64,000 nt of DNA. It comes from Larsenimonas salina. Lineage in GTDB: Bacteria > Pseudomonadota > Gammaproteobacteria > Pseudomonadales > Halomonadaceae. The notes beneath the pieces were generated by a model. That model saw nothing but the letters and a program-made list of their open reading frames with translations. It was not told where the DNA came from and made no database searches. Numbering within the stretch: position 1 is the stretch's first letter; every line of letters starts with the position of its first letter. The position numbers were made by a program, and so were the translations under genes. This document shows positions 43,850 through 57,100 of this stretch, one piece after another. The DNA is taken from positions 1 through 64,000 of the forward strand of contig NZ_JAMLJJ010000001.1 in NCBI RefSeq assembly GCF_023736155.1. The letters are read 5' to 3'.

Positions 43850-44536
43850 GTGACCGATTGCCGTATTGCCCCGTCCATCCTGTCTGCTGATTTTGCACGT
43901 CTGGGGGCTGAGGTGGAAAACGTGCTTGCCAGTGGCGCGGACATGATCCACTTCGATGTAATGGACAACCATTTCGTCCCGAATCTGACCTTCGGTGCGC
44001 CGGTGTGCAAGGCGCTTCGAAACTACGGCGTCACCGCGACCATTGACGTTCACCTGATGGTCGACCCGGTTGACCGGTTGATCGGCGATTTTCTCGATGC
44101 CGGCGCCGACATCATTACCTTTCACCCGGAAGCGAGCGCCCACATTGACCGCTCCCTCTCACTGATCAAGGAGGGCGGCGCCAAGGCAGGTCTTGTGTTC
44201 AACCCGGCGACGCCTCTTGCGTACCTGGATTACGTCATGGACAAGATCGATATGGTGCTCATCATGAGCGTCAATCCAGGCTTTGGCGGTCAGTCTTTCA
44301 TACCTACCGCGCTTGATAAGCTCCGCGATGCGCGCGCGCGCATCGACGCAAGCGGCCGGGACATCTGGCTCGAGGTCGACGGCGGCGTCAAGGTCGATAA
44401 CATCAAGGAGATTGCCGCCGCCGGCGCCGATACATTCGTTGCGGGCTCGGCAATCTTCAATCACCGCCGCGACGACGACCCGAACGGCTACGATTCGGTC
44501 ATCCGCGACTTGAAGGCCGAGGCCGCCAAGGCGTGA
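43850..44536 (+). CDS. rpe: ribulose-phosphate 3-epimerase
   Basis: 228 residues from a GTG start (taggag site 6 bp upstream). TIM-barrel enzyme interconverting ribulose-5-phosphate and xylulose-5-phosphate. It shows the N-terminal [57 protein letters not shown] and the C-terminal phosphate-binding [10 protein letters not shown]...[13 protein letters not shown]. The stop overlaps the GTG start of the next gene by 4 bp. Confidence 0.95.
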
Positions 44537-44805
44537 GCCGCGACTGGTACCTGTATATGCTTCAAACCCGGCGCGGTACGCTCTATACCGGCATTACCAC
44601 CGACGTTGAACGCCGATGTGCCGAGCATGAGGCCGGGCGAGGGGCCAAGGCGCTTCGCGGCAAGGGGCCCTTGGTGCTCATGCACTGGGAGTGGGTCGGT
44701 GATCACGGCAAGGCCTTGCGCCTGGAGGCCTCGATCAAGCGCCTTTCCGCGCTCGAAAAACGCCGCTGGCTTGCGGCGCGGTCATCCGCTGACGCGGTGC
44801 GTTGA
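44533..44805 (+). CDS. GIY-YIG domain nuclease, YhbQ/UPF0213 type
   Basis: 90 residues, almost entirely one GIY-YIG fold: [39 protein letters not shown]. The diverged GIY reads YLY and YIG reads YTG, with the catalytic Arg in ERRCAEH and the Glu in [10 protein letters not shown]. coli YhbQ-type proteins are thought to act on DNA. It starts with GTG overlapping the rpe stop (GTGA), so the two are cotranslated. Confidence 0.88.
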
Positions 44806-44821
44806 GCGTGTTAATATTTAG

Positions 44822-44920
44822 GTGCCCCGCGATTGGACCGAGTGGGGCTAAAATCGATAGGGTGCCGTAGAGTACTTGATGAGAAGCACGCCACGCGGTT
44901 GTACCGGGTGGCGTTTTTTT
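44822..44920 (+). ncRNA. candidate structured leader or small RNA upstream of the panE-like gene
   Basis: Two hairpins follow each other. The first pairs gccccgc (about 44824-44830) with gtggggc (about 44842-44848), counting one G-U pair. The second is cgccac/gtggcg (44889-44894 with 44908-44913), followed by seven T residues, which is a good intrinsic terminator. The preceding gene ends at 44805 and the next starts at 44976. So the element is either the rpe-operon 3' end or an independent short transcript or attenuator. Confidence 0.4.
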
Positions 44921-44975
44921 GTGCCGTTTTCATGGCCTGGGTGTATTGAACGTGTGTGTTGAACGTGATGAGACC

Positions 44976-45875
44976 ATGAACACAGTCGTGTTCGGCGCCG
45001 GAGCGGTCGGCTGTTTCTTTGGCGGGCTTTTGGCCGAGGCCGGGCATTCGGTGACATTGATCGGCCGGGCGCGTCATGTTGAACGCATCCAGGCCGAGGG
45101 GCTTCGGATCGAGACGGCCTCAGGGCGTCGCTGGGTCCGAGACATCACCGCAAGTACCGGCCTTGAATGCCTTGAAGGAGCCTCGCTGGTGCTCTGCTGC
45201 ACCAAGAGCGCGCAGATAGATGAGGCCGCAAAGCATCTTGGCTCCCGGTTACATGCGCATGTGCCGGTGCTGAGCCTTCAAAATGGGCTGACAAGTGCCG
45301 AGCGGTTACGAAAGGCGTTGCCAAACAACCCTGTCTGGCCGGCACTGGTGTACGCCGCGGTCGGGATGAATGAGCCGGGTGTGGTGGCGCATCGCGGCGG
45401 GCAGCGGTTGTGTTTGGACGCGCGCTGTCGAATCGAGCCCTTTTTCAATGTGCTGTCAGGCAGTGCGATCGAGTGTCAGTTGTATGCCGACATGGAGGCG
45501 ATGCGCTGGCACAAGCTGTTGGTCAACTGCGCCCTCAACGCGCTTTCTGCCATTAGCCAGTCCACCTATGGGGCGCTGCTTGAGGTGCCATCACTCGGTG
45601 CGTGGTTTGGTGAGCTGATCAGGGAGTGCGTGGAGGTGGCCCGCGCATGCGGCGTCGATGTAGGGGCAACGCTTGAACATGACGTGCTCGAGCTCATGCA
45701 GGCCATGGCGCATCAGCGCTCCTCCACCGCGCAGGATCTGGCGCGAGGCCGACCGACCGAGGTCGATGAGTTCAACGGGTTTTTGATGCAAAAAGGGCGC
45801 GAGCACGGTGTGCCCACGCCCATCAACACGACGCTCTACACTTTGATCAAGGCGCTCGAGATGCCGAGCGCCTGA
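44976..45875 (+). CDS. panE: ketopantoate reductase (2-dehydropantoate 2-reductase) family protein
   Basis: 299 residues from the ATG at 44976, which puts the NADPH-binding GxGxxG motif at the N-terminus (MNTVVFGAGAVGCFFGGLLAEAGHSVTLIGR). Catalytic-type features follow: CTKSAQ, LQNGLTSAERL and the Lys in MRWHKLLVNCALNALSAISQSTYGAL near 180. PanE reduces 2-dehydropantoate to pantoate for coenzyme A synthesis. Paralogues with other substrates are common in this family, so the symbol is tentative. It follows a terminator, so it probably has its own promoter. Confidence 0.82.
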   Translation: MNTVVFGAGAVGCFFGGLLAEAGHSVTLIGRARHVERIQAEGLRIETASGRRWVRDITASTGLECLEGASLVLCCTKSAQIDEAAKHLGSRLHAHVPVLSLQNGLTSAERLRKALPNNPVWPALVYAAVGMNEPGVVAHRGGQRLCLDARCRIEPFFNVLSGSAIECQLYADMEAMRWHKLLVNCALNALSAISQSTYGALLEVPSLGAWFGELIRECVEVARACGVDVGATLEHDVLELMQAMAHQRSSTAQDLARGRPTEVDEFNGFLMQKGREHGVPTPINTTLYTLIKALEMPSA

Positions 45876-45882
45876 GCCGGTC

Positions 45883-47184
45883 TCAGTGCAGTTTCATGCG
45901 CGGTCGAATCCAGGTATTGATGCCATCGACCAGCATGGTCATGCCCGCCTTGGCGGTACCGTGGATGGTTTGCTGGTGCATTCGGTAGAGCGAGGCGTAG
46001 AACAGTTTCGCGAGCTTGCCCTCGACAAACAGCCCCTTGGAGGAGTTGCTGCGCATGAGATTGCCGACGGCGTCGAAATGCGATAGCGACACCAATGAGC
46101 CCATGTCTCGGTAGTTGAACTCCTTCAGGGGTTTGTCGTCGATTGCCGCCAGAAGGTTCTTGTAGAGGCGGCTGGCCTGCTGGTGAGCCGCCTGAGCCCG
46201 CGGAGGCACAAGCTTGCCGCCGGGCTGGGGGCAGGCCGCGCAGTCGCCCATGGCGAAGATATTGCTGTCGTCGACGCTTTGAAGGGTCTGATTGACCATG
46301 ACCTGATGGTTGGACTGGGTCGAAAGCCCCAGCTCCGAGAGAAAGGCCGGGCCGCGAATGCCCGCCGCCCATACGGTCAGATCGGCATCGATGTGCGTGC
46401 CGTCGGCGGTTTCGAAGCCGCCGTCATCGGCCTGAGTGACCTTGGTGTCGGTGTGGATACGCACGCCGATGCGCTCGAGCTGGCGATGCACGGGGGCACT
46501 GATGCGCTCGGGCAGAGCCGGCAGTACCCGCGGCGCCGCTTCAATCAGATGCACCGTGAGCTTATGGCGGTCCATGCGAGTGACGCCGTAGCTGTTGAGC
46601 ATGTCGCTTGCGTCCAGAAGCTCCGCAGAGAGTTCCACCCCGGTCGCCCCGGCGCCAACGATTGCAACGCTGAGCGGGCGGGTAGACTGGGTTTCCTGAT
46701 CGTGATTGTGACGCAGGAAGGTGTTCAAAAGCGCCTTTCGAAAGATTTCGGCCTGCTTGGGGCTGTCCAGAAAGTAGCAGTGGTCGGCTACGCCCGGGGT
46801 GCCGAAATCGTTGCAGACGCTTCCAAGTGACAGCACGAGGTAGTCGTAATCAAGCGTTCGCTCGGGCAGGATTTCATGGTCGTCCTCATCGATGATGGCG
46901 CCGAGCTGAATGCGGCGGTTTTCCTTGTCGAGCCCGGTCATGGTGCCGCGTTGAAAGCGGTAGCCGTTATGGCGCGAATGGCCTTGATAGGACACTTCAT
47001 CGAGCCCGGAGTCGAGCTTGCCGGTCGCCACTTCATGCAAGAGCGGTTTCCAGATGTGCGTCGGGTCCCGGTCGACCAGCACGATGTCGGCCTTGTTGCG
47101 CTTGCCGAGTTTCTTGCCAAGCCGGGTGACCAGCTCCAGGCCGCCGGCACCGCCGCCGACGACCACGATTCGCGGATGTTTCAT
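45883..47184 (-). CDS. ndh: type II NADH:quinone oxidoreductase
   Basis: 433 residues, single-subunit flavoprotein passing electrons from NADH to quinone without pumping protons. The FAD-binding motif is RIVVVGGGAGGLELVTRLGKKLG at the N-terminus and the NADH motif is VAIVGAGATGVELSAEL around 172-188. The IFAMGDCAACPQP block and the C-terminal amphipathic KLFYASLYRMHQQTIHG region are typical of bacterial Ndh. It converges with the panE-like gene 7 bp apart and diverges from gph. Confidence 0.94.
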   Translation of the reverse strand: MKHPRIVVVGGGAGGLELVTRLGKKLGKRNKADIVLVDRDPTHIWKPLLHEVATGKLDSGLDEVSYQGHSRHNGYRFQRGTMTGLDKENRRIQLGAIIDEDDHEILPERTLDYDYLVLSLGSVCNDFGTPGVADHCYFLDSPKQAEIFRKALLNTFLRHNHDQETQSTRPLSVAIVGAGATGVELSAELLDASDMLNSYGVTRMDRHKLTVHLIEAAPRVLPALPERISAPVHRQLERIGVRIHTDTKVTQADDGGFETADGTHIDADLTVWAAGIRGPAFLSELGLSTQSNHQVMVNQTLQSVDDSNIFAMGDCAACPQPGGKLVPPRAQAAHQQASRLYKNLLAAIDDKPLKEFNYRDMGSLVSLSHFDAVGNLMRSNSSKGLFVEGKLAKLFYASLYRMHQQTIHGTAKAGMTMLVDGINTWIRPRMKLH

Positions 47185-47342
47185 CGATGCTCCCGAATTG
47201 GGCAGGCTGCGCGGCGCTTATGCGCTACGCTGTACCTGCGCCTTAAGTTGAAAAGATTCAAACCTGAAAATGTGTATCGGTAGAATAGCGTGCGCGGCAA
47301 GGCGATGATAGCGCCTCGCATTTCCCGGCCTATGGAGACTCA

Positions 47343-48020
47343 ATGCATCACTTACTTGACTCGATCGATCTGATTCTGTTCGACCTGGACGGCACGCTGG
47401 TGGATTCCGCCCCCGATCTCGGCGGCGCCCTTGCCGAGGCCATGAGCGAGCGAGGCTATCCGGCACCCAGGCTTGAGGCCGTGCGTGACTGGGTCGGCAA
47501 CGGCTCGTATGTGCTGGTTGAGCGGGCCTTGAACGCCGCCCGCGATCAGGGGCTGATCTCGCCGTTTAACGAGGCGACCGTCGACAGTATCCATCAGCGC
47601 TTTCTTCATCATTACGGTCAACGGCTCTGCCGCAACACCGACGTATATCCCGGCGTACGAGAAAGTCTCGCCGCCTTCAAACAGTCCGGGCGCCGTCTGG
47701 CGGTGGTCACCAACAAGCCGGCGCTGTTCATTACCCCGATTCTTGAAGGCCTTCAGCTTGGCGGTTTGTTCGATCTGCTGGTCGGCGGCGATACGCTTGC
47801 GGTCAAAAAACCCGATCCTGGCCCCCTCGAGCATGCGATGGCGGCCTTTTCAGTGCCCGCCGAGCGCACATTGATGGTGGGTGACTCGATCAATGACATA
47901 CGCGCCGCCCAGGCCGCCGGCTGTCAAAGCGTGGCGCTTACCTATGGCTATAATCACGGGCAACCCATTGACGAGGCGGGCGCGACGCTCGTTATTGAAT
48001 CGCTTGCACAACTCGTTTAG
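47343..48020 (+). CDS. gph: phosphoglycolate phosphatase
   Basis: 225 residues, HAD-superfamily phosphatase removing 2-phosphoglycolate formed during repair of oxidised DNA ends. Motif I is LILFDLDGTLVDSAPDL (nucleophile Asp about 13), motif II is VVTNKP, and motifs III/IV are KKPDPGPLEHA and MVGDSINDIRAAQAAG. It lies immediately upstream of trpE, as is common in pseudomonads and relatives, but a terminator separates the two. Confidence 0.92.
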   Translation: MHHLLDSIDLILFDLDGTLVDSAPDLGGALAEAMSERGYPAPRLEAVRDWVGNGSYVLVERALNAARDQGLISPFNEATVDSIHQRFLHHYGQRLCRNTDVYPGVRESLAAFKQSGRRLAVVTNKPALFITPILEGLQLGGLFDLLVGGDTLAVKKPDPGPLEHAMAAFSVPAERTLMVGDSINDIRAAQAAGCQSVALTYGYNHGQPIDEAGATLVIESLAQLV

Positions 48021-48029
48021 GGTAAATTT

Positions 48030-48051
48030 GCCGTCTGAAACGGCTTTTTTT
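48030..48051 (+). terminator. gph terminator
   Basis: gccgt-ctgaa-acggc stem-loop followed by seven T residues, 9 bp after the gph stop codon. The following AT-rich segment (taatttctaat) is where a trpE promoter would have to lie. Confidence 0.78.
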
Positions 48052-48078
48052 AATTTCTAATGTGCGTTGAGCCTACCC

Positions 48079-48132
48079 ATGACTCCCACGGTGCCCGAAT
48101 CGATGCAAAAGGTATTACGCTGGCGATGGTGA
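48079..48132 (+). CDS. trpL: trp leader peptide upstream of trpE
   Basis: A 17-codon ORF reads MTPTVPESMQKVLRWRW and stops at TGA 48130-48132; alternative starts are GTG 48091 and ATG 48103 (9 codons). Two of its last three codons are Trp (TGG at 48121 and 48127). A hairpin plus T-run follows 24 bp later and trpE starts 83 bp after the leader stop. This is the layout of a transcription attenuator in which ribosome stalling at Trp codons controls read-through. The ribosome-binding site is weak (tgag 8 bp before 48079), so the exact start is uncertain. Confidence 0.7.
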   Translation: MTPTVPESMQKVLRWRW

Positions 48133-48133
48133 C

Positions 48134-48173
48134 GCCCACCCTCGTACGACGCTTGAGCCCACCGGGCTTTTTG
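48134..48173 (+). terminator. attenuator hairpin of the trpE leader
   Basis: agccc (48156-48160), loop acc, gggct (48164-48168), then a run of five T. The 7-mer gcccacc occurs twice, at 48134-48140 and 48157-48163. So the gggc right arm can pair with either the near copy (terminator) or the far copy (possible antiterminator). The terminator stem is short for a strong terminator. Confidence 0.6.
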
Positions 48174-48214
48174 TTGCAATGATGCGCCCAGCGCAACTGC
48201 CTTGAGGTCACCCC

Positions 48215-49699
48215 ATGACACCCGAACGCTTTGATGAGCTGGCACACGCCGGCTATACCCGTATCCCGGTTTCGCGCGACATTCTCGCGGATCTGGACAC
48301 ACCGCTTTCCACCTATTTGAAACTGTCCAACGAGCCGTGGACCTTTCTGCTTGAATCCGTCCAGGGCGGCGAGAAGTGGGGGCGGTATTCCATCATCGGG
48401 TTGCCGTGCCGCGAGCGCATTGAAGTGCGTGGTTTCACCATTCGCCACATCATTGACGGCCACGACGCTGGCGCCACTCAGGTTGAGGATCCGCTTGAAT
48501 GGATCGATACCTTCCGGCAGCGCTTCAAGGCGCCGGAAGAGGACAACCATCTGCGCTTTTCAGGCGGACTGGTGGGATATTTCGGCTACGACACCATTCG
48601 CTATATCGAGCCCAGGCTTCAAGGCGTCGAGAAGCCCGACCCGATCGACGTGCCGGACATTTTGTTGATGGTGGCCGAGGAAGTGGTGGTCTTCGATAAC
48701 CTCTCCGGCAAGCTGACGCTTCTGGTGCACGCAGACCCTGCAACGCCTGACGCGCTTTTACAGGCGCGAGAGCGGCTCGACGTGCTCGAGGCGCAGCTGC
48801 GCGCGGCGGTGTTGTCGGCTTCGAGCCCCGGCACTGGGCGCGATGAAATCGGCGAGGACGATTTCTTTGCAAGCTTTTCCGAGCAGGGCTACAAGGACGC
48901 GGTCGCCCGGATCAAGGATTACGTGCGCGCAGGCGATGTCATGCAGTGCGTGCCGTCCCAGCGGATGTCGATTCCCTTCAGCGCGCCACCGCTCGATCTT
49001 TACCGAGCGCTTCGCCACCTGAATCCATCGCCCTACATGTTCTTTTTCAATCTCGACGATCATCACGTGGTTGGCGCCTCCCCGGAAATTCTGGCGCGGC
49101 TCGAGGGTGAGGAAATCACGCTGCGACCGATTGCTGGAACACGCCATCGCGGTGCAACGCCTGAAGAGGACCGGGCGCTTGCCGAGGAGCTTTTGGCTGA
49201 TCCGAAAGAGCGCGCCGAGCACGTGATGCTGATTGATCTTGGACGCAACGACGTGGGGCGCATCAGCACCCCGGGCTCGGTCGAGCTGACCGAGAACATG
49301 TCGATCGAGCGCTACTCGCACGTCATGCACATCGTTTCGAACGTGACCGGGAGACTTTCACCGAAGCTTGGGCCGCTCGATGTGCTGCGCGCGACCTTTC
49401 CGGCCGGCACGCTCTCGGGGGCGCCGAAGATTCGGGCGCTCGAGATCATCGACGAGCTCGAGCCGGTCAAGCGCGGTATCTATTCCGGCGCCGTGGGCTA
49501 TCTGGACTGGTCCGGCAACATGGACATGTCGATCGCGATTCGCACCGCCGTGATCAAGCGTGGCGAGCTTCATGTGCAGGCCGGTGGCGGGATTGTTGCC
49601 GACTCCGACCCCGATGATGAGTGGAACGAAACGCTCAACAAGCGCCGGGCGATGTTCCGGGCAGTAGCCATGGCCGAGAAGGGCCTCGACAACCTCTAA
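48215..49699 (+). CDS. trpE: anthranilate synthase component I
   Basis: 494 residues. It makes anthranilate from chorismate using ammonia supplied by TrpG, the first committed step to tryptophan. The N-terminal feedback site is present ([22 protein letters not shown], with the LLES element of tryptophan-sensitive enzymes near 43). Catalytic regions include [71 protein letters not shown] and [21 protein letters not shown]. It is preceded by a leader peptide and attenuator; a second leader separates it from trpG. Confidence 0.96.
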
Positions 49700-49745
49700 C
49701 TGTCCGCGTTCCTGCGCTTGACAGTGTGGGTGAGGGCAACACACT

Positions 49746-49811
49746 ATGATGTACATGATGCCGATAAATGACGTACGCACCGACGCAGTGTCAACGTGGT
49801 GGCCTTTCTAA
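49746..49811 (+). CDS. second trp leader peptide, upstream of trpGDC
   Basis: An ORF of 21 codons from ATG 49746 (in-frame ATGs also at 49749, 49755 and 49758) ends with the residues STWWPF before TAA 49809-49811. It thus carries two adjacent Trp codons (TGG TGG at 49797-49802) two codons before Pro-Phe. A gaggg ribosome site (49732-49736) precedes 49746 by 9 bp. A terminator follows 42 bp downstream and trpG starts 53 bp after that. Tandem Trp codons in a short ORF just before a trp gene are strong evidence for an attenuation leader. Confidence 0.8.
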   Translation: MMYMMPINDVRTDAVSTWWPF

Positions 49812-49852
49812 CGCGAGGCGGCCCCGGTGTGTTCGTAGGCTATGAATACCCT

Positions 49853-49882
49853 AAAAAAGCCGCCGCTCAGGCGGCATTTTTA
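49853..49882 (+). terminator. attenuator terminator before trpG
   Basis: gccgcc (49859-49864), loop gctca, ggcggc (49870-49875), then attttta; A residues precede the stem. The upstream segment ggcggcc at 49817-49823 can pair with the left arm gccgcc (antiterminator). Its ggcc part can pair instead with the ggcc at 49801-49804, which overlaps the second Trp codon. That provides the mutually exclusive structures required for attenuation. Confidence 0.75.
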
Positions 49883-49934
49883 TGAGTGTCCGCCGCGCGG
49901 TGGCCTGCACGTTTGTCGAGTAAGGAGATAATAC

Positions 49935-50567
49935 GTGTCCGTTTTGATGATCGATAATTACGACAGCTTTACCTACAACATCGTTCAGTATCTGGGCGAG
50001 CTGGGGGCCGAGGTTACAACGCTTAGAAATGACGCGGTGACGCTTGAAGAGGTGGCCGAGACGTCGTTCACCCACTTGATCATCTCCCCGGGGCCCTGCA
50101 CGCCGAACGAGGCGGGCATCTCGATGGATCTGATCAGGGCCTATGCGGGCAAGGTGCCGATTCTTGGCGTCTGCCTTGGCCATCAGGCCATCGGTCAGGT
50201 GTACGGCGGCGATGTCGTGCGCGCGCCTGAAGTGATGCACGGCAAGACGTCGTTGATCCATCATGAAGGTCACGGCGTGTTCGACGGGCTTTCCAATCCG
50301 CTGGAAGTGACGCGCTATCACTCGCTGGTGGTCGACAGAGCAACGCTTCCTGAGTGTCTCGAGGTGACGGCCTGGACCGGTGACGATGACGTTACCCCCG
50401 GTCAGATCATGGGGCTTCGTCACAAGACGCTTGATATTGAAGGCGTTCAGTTTCACCCCGAGTCGATCCTGACCCACCAGGGGCATCAGCTGCTGGCAAA
50501 CTTTCTGCGCCGGGGGGAGCATCCGCTCGATGTCCTGCCGGTGGCCGACACACGCGCTATTGCCTGA
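49935..50567 (+). CDS. trpG: anthranilate synthase component II (glutamine amidotransferase)
   Basis: 210 residues from a GTG start with an aaggag site. It supplies ammonia from glutamine to TrpE. The class I amidotransferase triad is present: Cys about 80 in [13 protein letters not shown], and His/Glu in [14 protein letters not shown] near the C-terminus. [20 protein letters not shown] is the N-terminal signature and [12 protein letters not shown] lies near 58. It opens the trpGDC transcription unit downstream of its own leader. Confidence 0.96.
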
Positions 50568-50602
50568 GCGTTTCATTCGATCCAAGAACGGGAGTCGTGT
50601 AC

Positions 50603-51634
50603 GTGGAGCTTAAAGAAGCCATTGCCCGAGTAAGCCGGCGTGAAGACCTGAGCCTTGATGAAATGCGCTCGGCCATGCGTCAGATGATGAGCGGCGAGGC
50701 CGACCCGGTTCAGATGGGCGGGCTCTTGATCGCCCTGGCCATGAAGGGAGAGAGCACCGATGAAATTACCGCAGCCGTCGAGGTCATGCGGGAATTGATG
50801 ACGCCTGTACACATCGAGGCCGAAAACATCGTGGATATCGTGGGCACTGGCGGGGATGGGGCGGGCCTTTTCAACGTCTCGACCGCGTCCAGCTTCGTGG
50901 CCGCCGCCGCAGGTGCCCATGTAGCCAAGCACGGTGGCAAGGGCGTCTCCAGCACCTCCGGCAGCGCCGACCTGCTTGCCCGCGCCGGCATCACGCTCAA
51001 TCTGGCGCCGGAGGAAATCGGTCGCTGCGTGCAGGAAGTGGGCGTTGGCTTCATGTTCGCGCCCAACCACCACACGGCGATGCGCCACGCGGTGCCGGTG
51101 CGCAAGTCGCTCGGGGTTCGCACCATGTTCAATATCCTGGGCCCGCTCACCAATCCGAGCGGGGCCAAGCAGCAGGTCATCGGTGTCTATGATGAATCAC
51201 TGGTCGCACCGTTTGCCGAAGTCCTGAAGCGCGTGGGCAGCACACACGCGTTGATCGTCCATGCCGCCGATGGTCTCGATGAGTTTTCCATCGCCGCCAC
51301 CTCGCGGGTCGCCGAGCTCAAGGACGGTACCATCACGACCTTCACGCTCGAGCCCGAGGATGTCGGTTTGCCGCGCCATTCATTGGATGCGCTCAAGGTC
51401 GATAATGTCGATGAGAGCCTGGTGATGGTCAAGCAGGCCCTCAAGGGCGAAGGCGCCGCCGCCGACATGGTGGCGTTCAACGCAGGCGCTGCAATTTATG
51501 TGTCCGGGATCGCCGGCTCCATCAAGGAGGGCGTCGCCATGGCGCAGGACGCGATGGACACCGGGCTTGCCCATGAAAAGATGCGCGAACTGTCGCATTT
51601 CACATCGGTCTTCGAAGGAGATGGCGATGAGTGA
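50603..51634 (+). CDS. trpD: anthranilate phosphoribosyltransferase
   Basis: 343 residues from the GTG at 50603, preferred over an in-frame GTG at 50597 because gggag then sits 8 bp away and the product starts [10 protein letters not shown] like its relatives. It joins anthranilate to PRPP. Substrate-binding motifs are [46 protein letters not shown] and [36 protein letters not shown]. It overlaps trpC by 8 bp. Confidence 0.96.
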
Positions 51635-52424
51635 GCTGCCAACGATTCTTGCACGAATCATTGCGCGCAAGCGCGAGGAAGTGAGCGAACGCCGTCAGGC
51701 GGTCAGTGAGGCCGAACTCAAGGCGCGCATCGCTCAGTGCTCACCCACTCGCGGGTTCATCAAGGCGCTGGAGCGAACCATGCTGGCCGGTGATCCGGCC
51801 GTGATCGCCGAGGTCAAGAAAGCCTCGCCGTCCAAGGGGGTGATCCGTGAGCAGTTCGATCCGCCGGCGATCGCCAGGGCCTATGAAGACGCCGGCGCGA
51901 GCTGCCTGTCGGTACTCACCGACGTCGATTTCTTTCAGGGCCATGACGACTATCTGGCCTCCGCGAAGGACGCCTGTGCGCTGCCGGTGCTTCGAAAGGA
52001 TTTCGTGGTCGACCCCTATCAGGTGCTTGAGTCCCGCGCGCTCGGTGCCGACTGCATCCTGTTGATCGTTGCGGCGCTGGACGATGACACGCTCAAGGCG
52101 CTTCACGATCAGGCTCGTGCCCTCAGCATGGATGTCCTGGTTGAGGTGCATGACGCGCATGAGCTCAACCGGGCGCTGGCGCTCGAGCTCGAGCTGGTCG
52201 GCATCAATAACCGTGACCTGCACACGTTCGACACCACACTCAATACCACCTTCAGTTTGCTGCCGATGGTGCCGGAAGGCGTGACGGTCATTACCGAATC
52301 GGGCATTGCCACACGAGACGACGTGCACCGCATGCAGGCCCACGACGTTAACGGATTTTTGGTGGGTGAAAGCTTCATGCGTGACGACGACCCGGGTGCT
52401 GCGCTTCGTCGACTGTTTTTCTAG
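51627..52424 (+). CDS. trpC: indole-3-glycerol-phosphate synthase
   Basis: 265 residues from the ATG at 51627, which overlaps the trpD stop and has a gaaggag site. TIM-barrel enzyme closing the indole ring. It shows [19 protein letters not shown] at the N-terminus, [21 protein letters not shown] (active-site Lys), [44 protein letters not shown] and [11 protein letters not shown]. There is no TrpF fusion. trpF, trpA and trpB are not in the window, as expected for the split trp layout of pseudomonads and relatives. Confidence 0.96.
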
Positions 52425-52436
52425 GGGCCATGCCCT

Positions 52437-52462
52437 GGTTTGACGCTTATTTGGTCTGACGC
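52437..52462 (+). repeat. imperfect direct repeat in the trpC 3' spacer
   Basis: ggtttgacgc (52437-52446) and ggtctgacgc (52453-52462) differ by one base with a period of 16 bp, directly before the trpC terminator. Confidence 0.65.
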
Positions 52463-52463
52463 C

Positions 52464-52496
52464 TAAAAAAACGCCCGCGCATTGCGGGCGTTTTTG
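52464..52496. terminator. bidirectional terminator between trpC and ugpQ
   Basis: acgcccgc/gcgggcgt 8-bp perfect stem, loop gcatt, with a seven-A run on the left and a T run on the right. The two genes converge here. Confidence 0.9.
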
Positions 52497-52519
52497 GATG
52501 TGGGCCGTCGCTGACGGAG

Positions 52520-53254
52520 CTAGCGGGCGGAGTCGAATTCCGGAAAGCTCAAGGGGTCATCGCTGATGACGCCTGTGATGCCGAAGTCCCACCAGGGCTC
52601 GAACTCCTCGGGCTGGTTAACGGTAAAGCACAGCAGGTGATAGCCCGCTTCCCGTATTTCCTTGACCCGCTCCTCGCTCATGTAGCGCCAGTCGACATTA
52701 ATGCTGACCGGCGACAGCCGTTCGGCGTCCCAGTGCCAGTTCCTTGGGATCTTTTCATCGAACAGGATGCCGATCGGGGCGGTATCGTCCAGCTTTCGAA
52801 TGTGGTCGAGCGCGTCCATCGAAAAGCTCGACAGCAGCAGACGCTCTTCCGGCACCTTCTCCCGCACCGTTGAAAGAACACGCTCGACCAGACTGACCGG
52901 GTCTTCCTGCTGGCCGATCTTCAATTCGAGATTAAGCCCGAGCCCGCGCTCGTTGAGCGTGTCGAGCGCCTCATCAAGCGTTGCCATGCGCTCGCCTTCA
53001 AAGCGCGGGTCGAACCAGGCGCCGACGTCGAGGGCCTTGGCCTGATCGAGTGTGAGCTCGCTCAAAAGGCCCTGACCATCGCTGCAGCGGCGAACGTGGC
53101 TGTCATGCCAGATCACCGGTGTGCCGTCGCCGAGGCACTGTACATCGAGTTCAACCCATTTTATTCCGGCATCGGCGGCGGCGTGGAGGGCGGCTCGGGT
53201 ATTTTCCGGCGCCTGAGCGCTTAAGCCACGGTGTGCGATAAATTTAGCGAGCAT
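52520..53254 (-). CDS. ugpQ: glycerophosphodiester phosphodiesterase (cytosolic, UgpQ-like)
   Basis: 244 residues, GDPD TIM-barrel enzyme splitting glycerophosphodiesters to glycerol-3-phosphate and an alcohol. It has the motif FIAHRGLSAQAPENTRAAL at the N-terminus (catalytic HR, then EN), WVELDVQCLGDGTPVIWHDSHVRRCSDGQG with metal-binding E-x-D and the second catalytic His, LNLELKIG, and TGVISDDPL at the end. There is no signal peptide, so it is cytoplasmic. No ugp transporter genes are nearby, so the symbol reflects similarity only. Confidence 0.9.
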   Translation of the reverse strand: MLAKFIAHRGLSAQAPENTRAALHAAADAGIKWVELDVQCLGDGTPVIWHDSHVRRCSDGQGLLSELTLDQAKALDVGAWFDPRFEGERMATLDEALDTLNERGLGLNLELKIGQQEDPVSLVERVLSTVREKVPEERLLLSSFSMDALDHIRKLDDTAPIGILFDEKIPRNWHWDAERLSPVSINVDWRYMSEERVKEIREAGYHLLCFTVNQPEEFEPWWDFGITGVISDDPLSFPEFDSAR

Positions 53255-53416
53255 GATTTGGGGTCCTGCGAAAACGTGTATGACACGACGGGTGTCGCGC
53301 TCAAAGTATAGTTGTTCTGGTCGGATATGCCCTCGCTGGCTACTGCGCGATGGCCTGCGGCTGTGCTAGTCTGCGCCCCACATTGTGCCGTTGGCACAGG
53401 CGTATGTCAGTCAACA

Positions 53417-54013
53417 ATGAGTCTCCGAATGAGAGTGGCCGAAATAAAAGATCCTGCAGCGCGGGAAAGTTGTGTGGCGCAGCTGTGCGCTGATGTCTAC
53501 GGCATGGAAGCGGGGCTCAAGCCGCTGGTCGTATTCACCGGAACGCTTGCCGCGTTCATTGATAACGAGGTGGCGCGCGTGGTGGCGCTGCTTGACGGTG
53601 ATCAGAAAATTCTGAGCATGGCCCTTCTGGCGCTCGACAGTGAAGGCGATGGGCTCGAGCTTCAGATGCTCGCCACGCCCGAGCGGCTGCGAGGCAAGGG
53701 GTACGCCCGTGAGCTGGTCGAGCGTTTGACCGCGACCACAAGCCTTCGCGTCGAAACACGTGACCCGCGCCTTGAGCAGTTCCTGTTCGGGCTTGGGTTC
53801 AACAAGTGGTTCTACGCCGACACCGGGGCCCGCGTGGGCTTCAACGCGCTTGCCAAGGTCACGGCGCTTGGGGATGCACCGGCGCCCTCACGCTTTGATG
53901 AAGACGCGATCATTCGAAGCTTCAAGCACAAGAGCGATCTGTTCGAGACCTACAAGCAGCGCTTCACCGATGCGCTTGCGCGCGCCCCCGAGCTGATGCC
54001 GGCGTCTGCCTGA
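53417..54013 (+). CDS. GNAT-like acetyltransferase family protein
   Basis: 198 residues from the ATG at 53417 (MSLRMRVAEIK); the ATG at 53429 is equally possible and neither has a good ribosome site. The middle part has the acetyl-CoA-binding pattern of GNAT proteins: LELQMLATPERLRGKGYARELVERL (R-x-x-G-x-G-Y/A) around 90-112, followed by LRVETRDPRLEQFLFGLGFNKWF. The C-terminal 50 residues are outside the core. The substrate is unknown. A 13-bp perfect hairpin and a repeat array follow it. Confidence 0.7.
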   Translation: MSLRMRVAEIKDPAARESCVAQLCADVYGMEAGLKPLVVFTGTLAAFIDNEVARVVALLDGDQKILSMALLALDSEGDGLELQMLATPERLRGKGYARELVERLTATTSLRVETRDPRLEQFLFGLGFNKWFYADTGARVGFNALAKVTALGDAPAPSRFDEDAIIRSFKHKSDLFETYKQRFTDALARAPELMPASA

Positions 54014-54027
54014 TCCTTGGCTCGATG

Positions 54028-54056
54028 ACTTGAGCGCGCCTAGGGCGCGCTCAAGT
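54028..54056. terminator. long perfect hairpin after the acetyltransferase gene
   Basis: acttgagcgcgcc (54028-54040), loop tag, ggcgcgctcaagt (54044-54056): a 13-bp perfect stem that is self-complementary on both strands. No T-run follows, so it is either a Rho-assisted or stabilising 3' structure. Its right arm runs into the 22-bp repeat array. Confidence 0.55.
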
Positions 54057-54163
54057 CCCTCCATCTATCTCCACTAGTCCCTCCGTCTATCCCCACTAGT
54101 CCCTCCGTCTATCCCCACTAGTCCCTCCGTCTATCCCCACTAGTCCCTCCATCCGCACCCACT
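54054..54163. repeat. five-copy 22-bp tandem repeat array
   Basis: Five consecutive 22-bp units start at 54054, 54076, 54098, 54120 and 54142, each beginning agtccctcc and ending cact. Units 2-4 are identical; unit 1 differs at two positions and unit 5 diverges in its middle. The array fills the gap between the hairpin and the stop codon of the RND gene at 54167. No spacers separate the copies, so it is not a CRISPR. Confidence 0.93.
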
Positions 54164-54166
54164 CGA

Positions 54167-57100
54167 TCAGTGTTTCGCTTTTTTGCGGCGCAGCTTGTCC
54201 ATGTAGAGATACACCACCGGGGTGGTGTAGAGCGTCAGCAGTTGACTCACGATCAGCCCGCCCACGATCGCGATGCCAAGCGGTGCGCGGATGTCGGCGT
54301 TTTCATCAGTGCCGAACACCAGCGGCAAGGCGCCCAGAATCGCGGCGAGCGTGGTCATCATGATCGGTCGGAAGCGAACGATGGCCGCCTCCCGAATGGC
54401 GTCCAGTGGTGAAAGCCCCAGGCGACGCTCGGCGTCGAGCGCGAAGTCCACCAGCATGATGGCATTTTTCTTGACCACCCCGATCAACAAAATGATGCCG
54501 ATGGCGGCGATCAGGGTGAACGGCTTGCCGAACACCATCAAAAGCAGCAGCGCCCCGATGCCCGCGGAAGGAAGCGTCGACAGGATCGTCAGCGGATGGA
54601 CGTAACTCTCGTACAAGATCCCGAGCACCAGATAGACCGTCAAAAGCGCGCCCAGAATCAGAAGCGGCATGGTCAGCGCGCTGTCCTGATAGGTGCCCGC
54701 GCTGCCTTCGAAGCTCGACTGAATCGAGGTGGGCAGGTTCAGTTGGTCCAGGCGTGCATTGATATCGGCCGTGGCCTGACTCAGCGGCACTCCCTCGCGC
54801 AGGTTGAATGAGACCGTGGCGGCGGCGAACTGGCCCTGATGGCTGACGCTTACCGGCGTGTTGCCGCGCTCGATGCGGGTAAAGGCCGAGAGCGGAATGC
54901 GCTGACCGTCGTTGCCAATCACGTGAAGCGTCGACAGCACCTCCGGCGAGCGCCGGTGGTCGGGCGCAAGCCCCATGATGACGTAATACTGATTGACGCC
55001 CTGGTAGATGCTTGCGACCTGATGCTGGCTGAAGGCGTTTTGCAGCAGCGTATCCACCATCGCCACATTCACGCCGAGCTGGCTGGCGCGGTCGCGGTCG
55101 ATGCGCACGACGCTTGAAAGCCCCTGCGTCTGACTGTCACTGCTGACACTTGTGATGCTTTTAACCTCGCGCATGGCCTCGCTTACGGTCGAGGTCCAGT
55201 CGCCAAGCTCATCAAGGTCGTCGCTCTTGAGCGTCAGCTCGAACTGGCCGTTGCTTTCCCGGCCGCCGAACTGAAGGTCCTGCATGGCCCGAAAGTAGAC
55301 GTTGAGACCGGGTTCATCCTTGAACATGCCGCTCAACCGGTTGGCGACGGCGTCAGTCGAGGCGGCGTGGTCTTTCTTGAGCGTCACAAACATCGTGACG
55401 GAGCTGCTGCCGCCACCGCCCGGGCCTCCGCTGCCGCCGAGCATACCGAGCACCTGCTCGACGTCGGGGTCGGCAAGCAGCCGCGTTCGAACGGCGTTGA
55501 CCTTGTTGGTGAGCGCGTCGTAGGAAATGCTTTGATCGGCCTGAGCGCTGCCCATTAGCCGCCCGGTGTCCTGATTGGGAATCAGTCCCTTGTCGATCGC
55601 GGTATAGAGATAGCCGTTGAAAACGATTACCGCGACCAGAGAAAGAAGCGTCAGGCATCGATGATTGAGCGCGATATCGAGCGTTCTGGTATAGCCACGC
55701 GCGATCGACTCGCCCAGCCGTTCGATGGCGCGTTTCCAGCGCGCTCGATTCTCGGTCTGGGGATCGTGGCGAAGCCAGCGCGCGCAGAGCATCGGCGTCA
55801 GTGTCAGCGACACTAGAAGCGACACCAGCACCGCAATTGAGAGCGTCATGGCGAACTCGTGAAACAGTCGCCCGATGAAGCCACCGAGCAACAGCAGCGG
55901 AATAAACACCGCAATCAACGAGATGCTCATCGACATCACGGTGAAGCCGACTTCCCGGGCGCCAAGCAGGGCGGCGCGGAAGGGCGGCTCGCCCCGCTCG
56001 ATGTGTCGGGCGATGTTCTCGGTCACAACGATGGCGTCATCGACCAGAAAGCCGATCGCAACGATCAATGCCATGAGCGAGAGGCTATCGAGTGAGTAGC
56101 CGAGCAGGTACATCAGGCCGAACGTGCCCAGCACCGACACCGGAATCGTGGCGCTTGGGATCAGGGTGGCGCGAAAGCTTCTTAAAAATACGAACACCAC
56201 CATCACCACAAGAATTACCGCGATGATCAGCGTGAACTGGGTTTCGTTGAGCGAGGCCTTGATGCCGGGGGAGCGGTCCATGATGGTGGCAAGTTTCGCC
56301 CCCGGCGGCAGGGCGCGCTCGACGCCTGGCAGGCGCGCCTTGATGTCGCTGATGGTCTGAACCACATTGGCGCCGCTGACGGTCTTGACGATCAGCAGGA
56401 TGGCTTTCCGGTCGTTGACAAAGCCTGTGCGATAGAGGTCTTCGACGCCTTTTTCGATGGTCGCGACATCGCCCAGCCGGGTGATCTGACCGTTGCCGTC
56501 GTCCTTGAGCACCAGTCTTTTGTAGCCCGCCACATCGAACATCTGACTGTCGGCGTCGATTTCCCAGCGGTAGCGGTCGCTGTGCAGAAACCCCTTGGGG
56601 GAATTGCTGTTGGCGTTTTGAATGGCGGTGGCGACATCGTCGAGCGCGATGCCTGAGTGATCGAGCGCGTCAGGGTCGAGATCGACCCGGATGGCCGGTG
56701 ACGAGCTGCCGGCGACCGAGACGCTGCCGACGCCGTTGACCTGAGCAATCTTGGGCGCGACCTGCTCATCGGCGATCGAATAGAGCGTGCCCTGATCGAT
56801 GTCGTCCGAGGTCAGCGCCAGAATGAAGACCGGCGCCGAGGCCGGGTTGAACTTGCGATAGGTCGGCGGGCTTCGCATGGCGCTTGGCAAAAGCGCCTGG
56901 GCGGAGTTGATGGCGGCCTGCACCTGGCGGGCGGCGTCATCGACGTTCTTGTCCAGATCGAACTGAAGAATGATTCGGGTCGAGCCCTGGGAGCTCGAGG
57001 AGGTCATCTGATCGATGCCGGCAATTTCACCAAGTGAGCGCTCAAGCGGCGTGGCCACCGTTGAGGCCATGGTTTCAGGGCTTGCACCGGAGAGGCTTGC

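Follow-up and report, generated by a model that had tools for sequence, protein, structure and literature searches.

Two Trp leaders in the trp region of Larsenimonas salina

The window analysed here, a stretch of 64,000 nucleotides from the genome of L. salina, carries trpE, a 235-nt gap, trpG, trpD and a trpC-type ORF, in this order. One leader with Trp codons lies ahead of trpE and another inside the gap. The features of the region are:

48103–48132, + strand: leader peptide of trpE, MQKVLRWRW*, belonging to the first attenuator
48155–48169, + strand: terminator-like hairpin in the trpE leader, with a T-run after it (terminator scan)
48215–49699, + strand: trpE (ORF; used as tblastn query)
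49718–49723, + strand: −35 element TTGACA of the trpG leader promoter (read in the sequence; conserved, perfect match)
49732–49736, + strand: gaggg, inside the −35/−10 spacer
49742–49747, + strand: −10 element CACTAT, spacer 18 nt
49755, + strand: predicted transcription start, at the A of the leader ATG, with C as the base before it (from promoter-ATG spacing and initiator base)
49755–49811, + strand: leader peptide MMPINDVRTDAVSTWWPF* in the leaderless reading, with its predicted start at ATG 49755 (family-wide module detector)
49797–49802, + strand: tandem Trp codons (read in the sequence)
49798–49806, + strand: segment 1, overlapping the Trp codons (fold; co-variation with segment 2)
49815–49823, + strand: segment 2, GAGGCGGCC, partner of segment 1 or segment 3 (fold; duplex energies)
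49859–49864, + strand: segment 3, the terminator left arm (terminator scan, fold, alignment)
49870–49881, + strand: segment 4, the terminator right arm with its T-run (terminator scan, alignment)
49935–50567, + strand: trpG (ORF), whose first codons, MSVLMIDN, are the counterpart of the prophage crossover site in relatives
50597–51634, + strand: trpD (ORF; used as tblastn query)

The predicted fold of the trpE-leader hairpin (48155–48169) was no more unusual than those of shuffled sequences. Leaders of the RWRW* type, as in this peptide, also precede trpE in many relatives and in Pseudomonas loci. On both strands of positions 47900–50100 the terminator scan listed 7 terminator-like sites (shuffle mean 2.4), none of them between the trpE stop and the trpG leader. 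An Rfam covariance-model scan of window positions 44000–56000, with E up to 1, retrieved no trp-leader match and only a chance snoRNA. The species' own genome gave no match to TrpR, which fits attenuation as the main control.

The gap before trpG contains an in-frame ORF (49746–49811) that ends TGG TGG CCT TTC TAA, followed by the terminator GCCGCC-GCTCA-GGCGGC-ATTTTT (49859–49881). The region thus combines a short ORF with Trp codons near its end, alternative pairings, and an intrinsic terminator before the structural gene, as classical attenuators do. The Trp-Trp leader ORF, the terminator and the competing fold that the original prediction placed in this gap are all present in the sequence as it had described them.

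Distribution of the trpG leader in the Halomonadaceae

The nearest named TrpG matches came from Salinicola (a member of the Halomonadaceae), Halomonas, Billgrantia, Vreelandella and others. We searched 151 genomes of the family and examined the region upstream of trpG in 149 of them (24 genera), G085 and G101 having no usable trpG match. A detector was built to require, in this order, a TTGAC-type −35, 16–19 nt, NANNNT, 4–10 nt and an ATG with a short ORF that has Trp at its end. It found a promoter-leader-terminator module in 80 of the 149 genomes and in 15 of the 24 genera, a count that takes in the window's own genome and a near-identical one; by this detector 69 genomes were without the module. 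One genome (G119) has the leader and the terminator, and the ATG expected at the promoter-defined distance reads ATC. Its leader (L091) has three Trp codons and may use another start or be decaying.

Presence of the module followed the distance between trpE and trpG. It was found in all 22 genomes with a gap of 171–600 nt, where the gaps themselves measured 235–600 nt, in 29 of the 32 whose gap exceeds 600 nt, and in none of the 30 with a gap of 170 nt or less; where trpE lay outside the fetched stretch (some of these stretches being about 1.5 kb long) it was found in 29 of 65. This pattern indicates that the second attenuator is no relic of contiguity, and that it is gone where the genes are tightly fused. 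The original prediction of a second, independent attenuator is supported as to its attenuator-type nature, its separateness from that of trpE and its conservation. Its picture of contiguous genes keeping two attenuators is not supported as worded, since the module also occurs with a distant trpE and is absent at gaps of up to 170 nt. A promoter-plus-attenuator module of trpGDC is a better description of the element than an intra-operon relay.

For searches beyond the detector we built a covariance model, R1, from 43 of the 80 sequences (L082 was left out, L097 was lost to the pattern, and the rest were more than 93% alike). In a search of 194 genomes of the order R1 gave only weak matches outside the family, and none of those that were fetched lay beside trpG. 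The weak matches of R1 elsewhere (E 1e-5 to 1e-3) we took to be terminators.

Alternative pairings upstream of trpG

In the predicted fold, positions 49798–49806 pair with 49815–49823 (1:2) and 49859–49864 with 49870–49875 (3:4). Segment 2 pairs with the last Trp codon together with the codons that follow, and the stop codon precedes the end of segment 2 by 7–13 nt, in keeping with the classical model. The ggcggcc at 49817–49823 had been proposed to be complementary both to the Trp-codon region and to the terminator left arm, giving alternative folds; the fold and the duplex energies agree with this, the 2:3 duplex (ggcggc with the left arm) being nearly as strong as the terminator (−14.1 vs −14.9 kcal/mol).

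The folding of the single sequence was mildly unusual over 203 nt (z −2.26) and 101 nt (z −2.68), and the 61-nt 1:2 region alone was not unusual (z +0.65). With z values of about −2.3 to −2.7 single-sequence folding is too weak as a proof of the attenuator, and the case rests on conservation in the relatives. Complementarity for 1:2, 2:3 and 3:4 is present in the 46 distinct forms, with co-variation for 1:2 only; the 3:4 and 2:3 stems are nearly invariant and so lend no co-variation support. When arms were swapped among the 46 forms, the 1:2 pairing of own arms was −12.83 as against −11.50 for swapped arms, and 0 of 5000 permutations reached the observed value; with one form per genus (15 forms) the values were −12.57 and −11.00, again with 0 of 5000 permutations, although relatedness inflates such tests, and in only 34 of 46 forms did own arms pair better than the average for other genera. 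In three of the four predicted 1:2 pairs both partners change among 43 aligned sequences, for which the alifold covariation term is only −0.38.

Tandem Trp codons (WW) occur in 71 of the 80 leaders, and a single Trp or a WR form in the other 9. The N-termini of the peptides vary widely among genera, only the C-terminal Trp stretch being kept; in the window the peptide has 18 amino acids. Had the gap held a mere terminator after trpE, the Trp ORF standing there by chance, relatives could be expected, as the original prediction pointed out, to keep the hairpin and not the ORF. In fact the Trp ORF is conserved too, and the comparison of spacers within the family returned both the module in more than half of the genomes and co-varying 1:2 arms. 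The mildly unusual single-sequence folding would sit well with a mere terminator; set against the C-terminal Trp, the stop a few codons later and the fixed distance from promoter to ATG in 80 genomes of 15 genera, and against the co-variation of the 1:2 arms, it leaves this explanation very improbable.

A predicted leaderless start

Upstream of the leader the relatives share a promoter pattern, TTGACA-N17/18-CACTAT, in which the −10 reads CACTAT in 48 of 80 (variants in the rest) and the spacer measures 17 or 18 nt in 79 of 80. CACTAT agrees with TATAAT at only 3 of 6 positions, which is why a strict promoter scan listed no promoter. Within the species' own genome the pattern was found once, at the trpG leader, and a reversed control also once, so that the site is significant only through its conservation.

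The leader ATG follows the −10 element after 6 nt in 36 and after 7 nt in 44 of the 80 detected modules. As the detector carried a slight built-in preference for a spacing of 6–7 nt, the distance was measured again from TTGAC alone, and an in-frame ATG was found 29–31 nt downstream in 72 of 78 distinct leaders (the 6 others having none at that distance when measured from the last TTGAC). A pyrimidine (C or T) precedes the ATG in 68 of 71 distinct sequences. Pairing with the anti-Shine-Dalgarno sequence averaged −1.25 kcal/mol at leader ATGs, −5.18 at trpG starts and −2.10 in shuffles (n = 64), and only 8% of the leader ATGs in relatives have a Shine-Dalgarno sequence of −4 kcal/mol or better. 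Promoter spacing, initiator base and the absence of a Shine-Dalgarno sequence together suggest that the trpG leader RNA probably starts at the leader ATG itself, that is, leaderless. The ATG of the window that matches the family spacing is the one at 49755, which makes MMPINDVRTDAVSTWWPF the main predicted peptide.

The gaggg at 49732–49736 had originally been read as the ribosome site of the leader ORF. It lies between a perfect −35 and a conserved −10 element, within the promoter spacer, and so probably does not act as a ribosome site on the main transcript; it could serve only transcripts that read through from trpE. A corresponding model, in which a second attenuator on the trpE read-through transcript is translated from gaggg and retunes trpGDC within one operon, draws on the lack of a listed terminator between the trpE stop and the leader, and on two earlier in-frame ATGs (49746 and 49749) that have Shine-Dalgarno matches in the window species (−8.1 and −6.5 kcal/mol), so that the leader could there be translated on such a transcript. 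We nevertheless consider this model unlikely, given that gaggg sits inside a conserved promoter, that the leader ATGs of relatives usually lack a Shine-Dalgarno sequence, and that the module is also found with trpE kilobases away.

Returning to the leaderless module, the terminated RNA or its peptide might also, or mainly, act in trans, as is reported for rnTrpL and peTrpL of Sinorhizobium. The parallel lies in a short leaderless RNA with a Trp leader peptide, as described in PMC7298713. Conservation of the C-terminal Trp stretch alone, with N-termini that differ widely among genera, speaks against such a role, which we regard as improbable.

Prophages integrated at trpG

In one genome (G003) R1 finds two copies of the module, 45 kb apart, with a prophage between them. 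Behind the first copy only the first codons of trpG remain, with an integrase after them, and the second copy precedes an intact trpG; both prophage ends lie on a single 854-kb contig. Matches of ten chosen prophage proteins include a terminase large subunit, a head-tail adaptor, a major head protein, a tail protein and an endolysin. Relatives of the integrase occur in 94 of 275 family genomes (E ≤ 1e-60). Among the ten closest (46–100% identical) a truncated trpG precedes the integrase in nine, while the remaining one (in G054) is not at trpG. In G101, one of the nine, the contig ends at the truncated trpG. Of the other R1 matches, the one in G018, near another integrase, is an ordinary terminator, and the two in G383 are one place at overlapping contig ends.

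Both prophage ends could be compared in eight genomes (G003, G014, G015, G081, G057, G141, G143 and G372), and in all eight, tandem repeats of integrase type (T-G-G/A-GTAA), spaced by 12 bp, are found on the integrase side as well as on the trpG side. The longest word common to both sides is the trpG crossover sequence in G003, G015, G081, G141 and G372; in G014, G057 and G143 it is the repeat itself.

Two of these eight prophages, those of G003 and G372, have a Trp module at their trpG-side end. The leader at the G003 prophage end, MTTAPIASIKSWRLH, contains one Trp and was in the training set of R1. That of G372, MTLFRPTQRIRQWWPF, was outside the training set and was found with 48.9 bits (E 1.5e-7), with a fold z of −5.2. 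In G372 contig C50 keeps the host's own module, behind trpE; the phage's module forms the end of the prophage contig C27, and the trpG contig C55 overlaps this end by 95 bp, prophage repeat included. Both genomes thus have the integrase, a truncated trpG at one junction and an intact trpG at the other; phage genes between the junctions were scanned in G003, and the integrase and junctions in G372.

The modules at prophage ends might instead be host sequence, through misassembly or chance insertion between two host copies, and the breakage of G372 into contigs at the repeated site would fit such an origin. The unbroken contig of G003 and the overlap across the G372 junction argue otherwise, as do the differences between phage-side and host-side leaders, the integrase-type repeats that flank both ends, and the presence of both stretches as viral records in IMG/VR. 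We hold a host origin to be unlikely.

A leader scan (10 stretches) and a promoter-ATG scan (52) of viral contigs detected no leader beyond the two known proviruses. Within the 330 nt read at the trpG-side end, the other six of the eight prophages show no Trp leader; in G014, which is one of them, trpGDC may escape tryptophan control. The host leader of G014 (L407/L408) is stranded at the far prophage end, some 50 kb away.

Repeats and module exchange

We scanned the 120 nt before trpG for a 12-bp repeat pair with a score of 12 or more out of 14. The pair occurs at 7 of 7 prophage ends, in 26 of the 79 genomes that have a leader and no recognised prophage, from 7 genera, and in 4 of 33 module-less genomes with a distant or unseen trpE, all of genus g10; it is absent from all 30 short-gap genomes, and shuffles give it in 0.1–0.8%. 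The window's genus has no repeat scar in this stretch. The 12-bp spacing was read off the prophage ends, and so chosen after the prophages had been seen; a first scan, at 11-bp spacing, had given 2 of 79 leader genomes and 5 of 7 prophage ends, and spacings other than 12 bp average 1.6 of 79. We infer that repeat-bearing modules without a prophage may be old prophage ends.

In one genome of genus g2 (G025) the stretch from promoter to crossover is 78% identical to that of a g20 genome (G073) and 42–54% identical to those of eight members of its own genus. After the crossover its trpG is 78% identical to that of G073 and 88–95% to those of the same eight. The identities switch at the crossover site, where the control module was exchanged.

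Directly behind trpE, G073 itself has an attenuator that has decayed; some 1.6 kb downstream, ahead of trpG, stands an intact one (L402), an arrangement that is probably the remnant of a lost prophage. The idea that kilobase-long trpE-trpG gaps are prophage remnants in general was dropped, as the ORFs listed in these gaps were varied and only the gap of G003 was prophage-like.

Discussion

Taking these results together, we consider it likely that positions 49718–49881 form a self-contained trpGDC promoter-plus-attenuator, leaderless and inherited within the family, and also mobile with prophages. RNA polymerase would start at the A of the leader ATG, and the leaderless RNA would serve for translation of the leader peptide. 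With charged tRNA-Trp in good supply, the ribosome would reach the stop codon and cover segment 2, letting the 3:4 terminator form; when it is scarce, the ribosome would stall at the two Trp codons, segments 2 and 3 would pair, and trpGDC would be transcribed. In the event that the leader is not translated, 1:2 plus 3:4 would form and transcription would end.

A prophage entering the first codons of trpG would cut the gene off from its old module. Some prophages would bring their own copy, which, if working, would then control trpG, and decaying prophages would leave theirs behind before trpG. On balance we favour the reading that temperate phages inserting in trpG carry a leaderless Trp attenuator that restores control, and that decayed ends have repeatedly replaced the host control across genera, as the junctions, repeats and identity patterns would suggest.

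If so, an amino-acid-sensing attenuator travels as a phage end. Attenuators are usually regarded as fixed parts of their operon; contrary to this view, the one before trpG would be a portable 5' module that is swapped at the crossover site of phages. It would show how a lysogen keeps a biosynthetic gene regulated after its leader has been cut off, and would explain why trpE-trpG spacing and control vary so strongly within one family. Relatives with two, one, decayed or no attenuator before trpG form a natural experiment on the worth of the second attenuator, and a leaderless leader peptide in gamma-proteobacteria would allow tests of what the initiating ribosome does in attenuation.

Parts of this system have known counterparts. 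In Escherichia coli the trp RNA is leadered, TrpR takes part in the control, and a single attenuator serves the whole operon. The module resembles that attenuator in the tandem Trp codons and the 1:2 / 2:3 / 3:4 logic, and differs in that its genome gave no TrpR match and the Rfam scan no trp-leader match. Attenuation of trpGDC is already known in Pseudomonas, as are leaderless trpL RNAs in Sinorhizobium and Streptomyces. In Pseudomonas putida it was reportedly described by Olekhnovich and Gussin in 2001. For the trpGDC leader of P. aeruginosa, premature 3' ends next to a GTG uORF are reported in PMC8297930. As in Pseudomonas, the halomonad leader lies upstream of trpG and trpE is attenuated separately; what differs is that trpE may be contiguous and that the start seems to be leaderless. 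The two systems also differ in leader form (WWR instead of RWRW). At 14 Pseudomonas-type loci (one labelled Pantoea) a leader of the form ...ARWRWR[AG]* precedes trpG, and a scan of these loci did not find the TTGACA-CACTAT-ATG module.

Leaderless trpL RNAs are described for Sinorhizobium meliloti (rnTrpL/peTrpL; PMC7298713) and Streptomyces lividans (PMC8079986). There, as predicted here, the transcript has the AUG of a Trp leader peptide at its 5' end and an attenuator at its 3' end. In alpha-proteobacteria and actinobacteria those leaders stand before trpE(G), or before trpE and trpS, as opposed to trpGDC in a gamma-proteobacterial family.

Our search of the open-access literature, with subscription trp surveys mostly outside its scope, turned up no account of an amino-acid attenuator borne by a phage, nor of the trpG module in Halomonadaceae. 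Elements that integrate at the 5' ends of genes, for example prfC and dusA, supply a new start or promoter, and like them the trpG prophage puts new sequence in place of the 5' end of its target gene; to our knowledge, none of the known ones supplies an amino-acid-sensing attenuator. The space between trpE and trpG is also an insertion hotspot for pyocins in P. aeruginosa, whose clusters are described as lacking an integrase (PMC13075995). Phage-related DNA between trpE and trpG is thus common to both, while the halomonad prophages, unlike the pyocin clusters as described there, bear an integrase and cross over in the first codons of trpG, and two of them carry an attenuator. A 45.7-kb IMG/VR record (L285) has an integrase 46% identical to that of G003 after an apparent Pseudomonas-type trpG start (MLLMID), so that the trpG site may be used outside the family as well.
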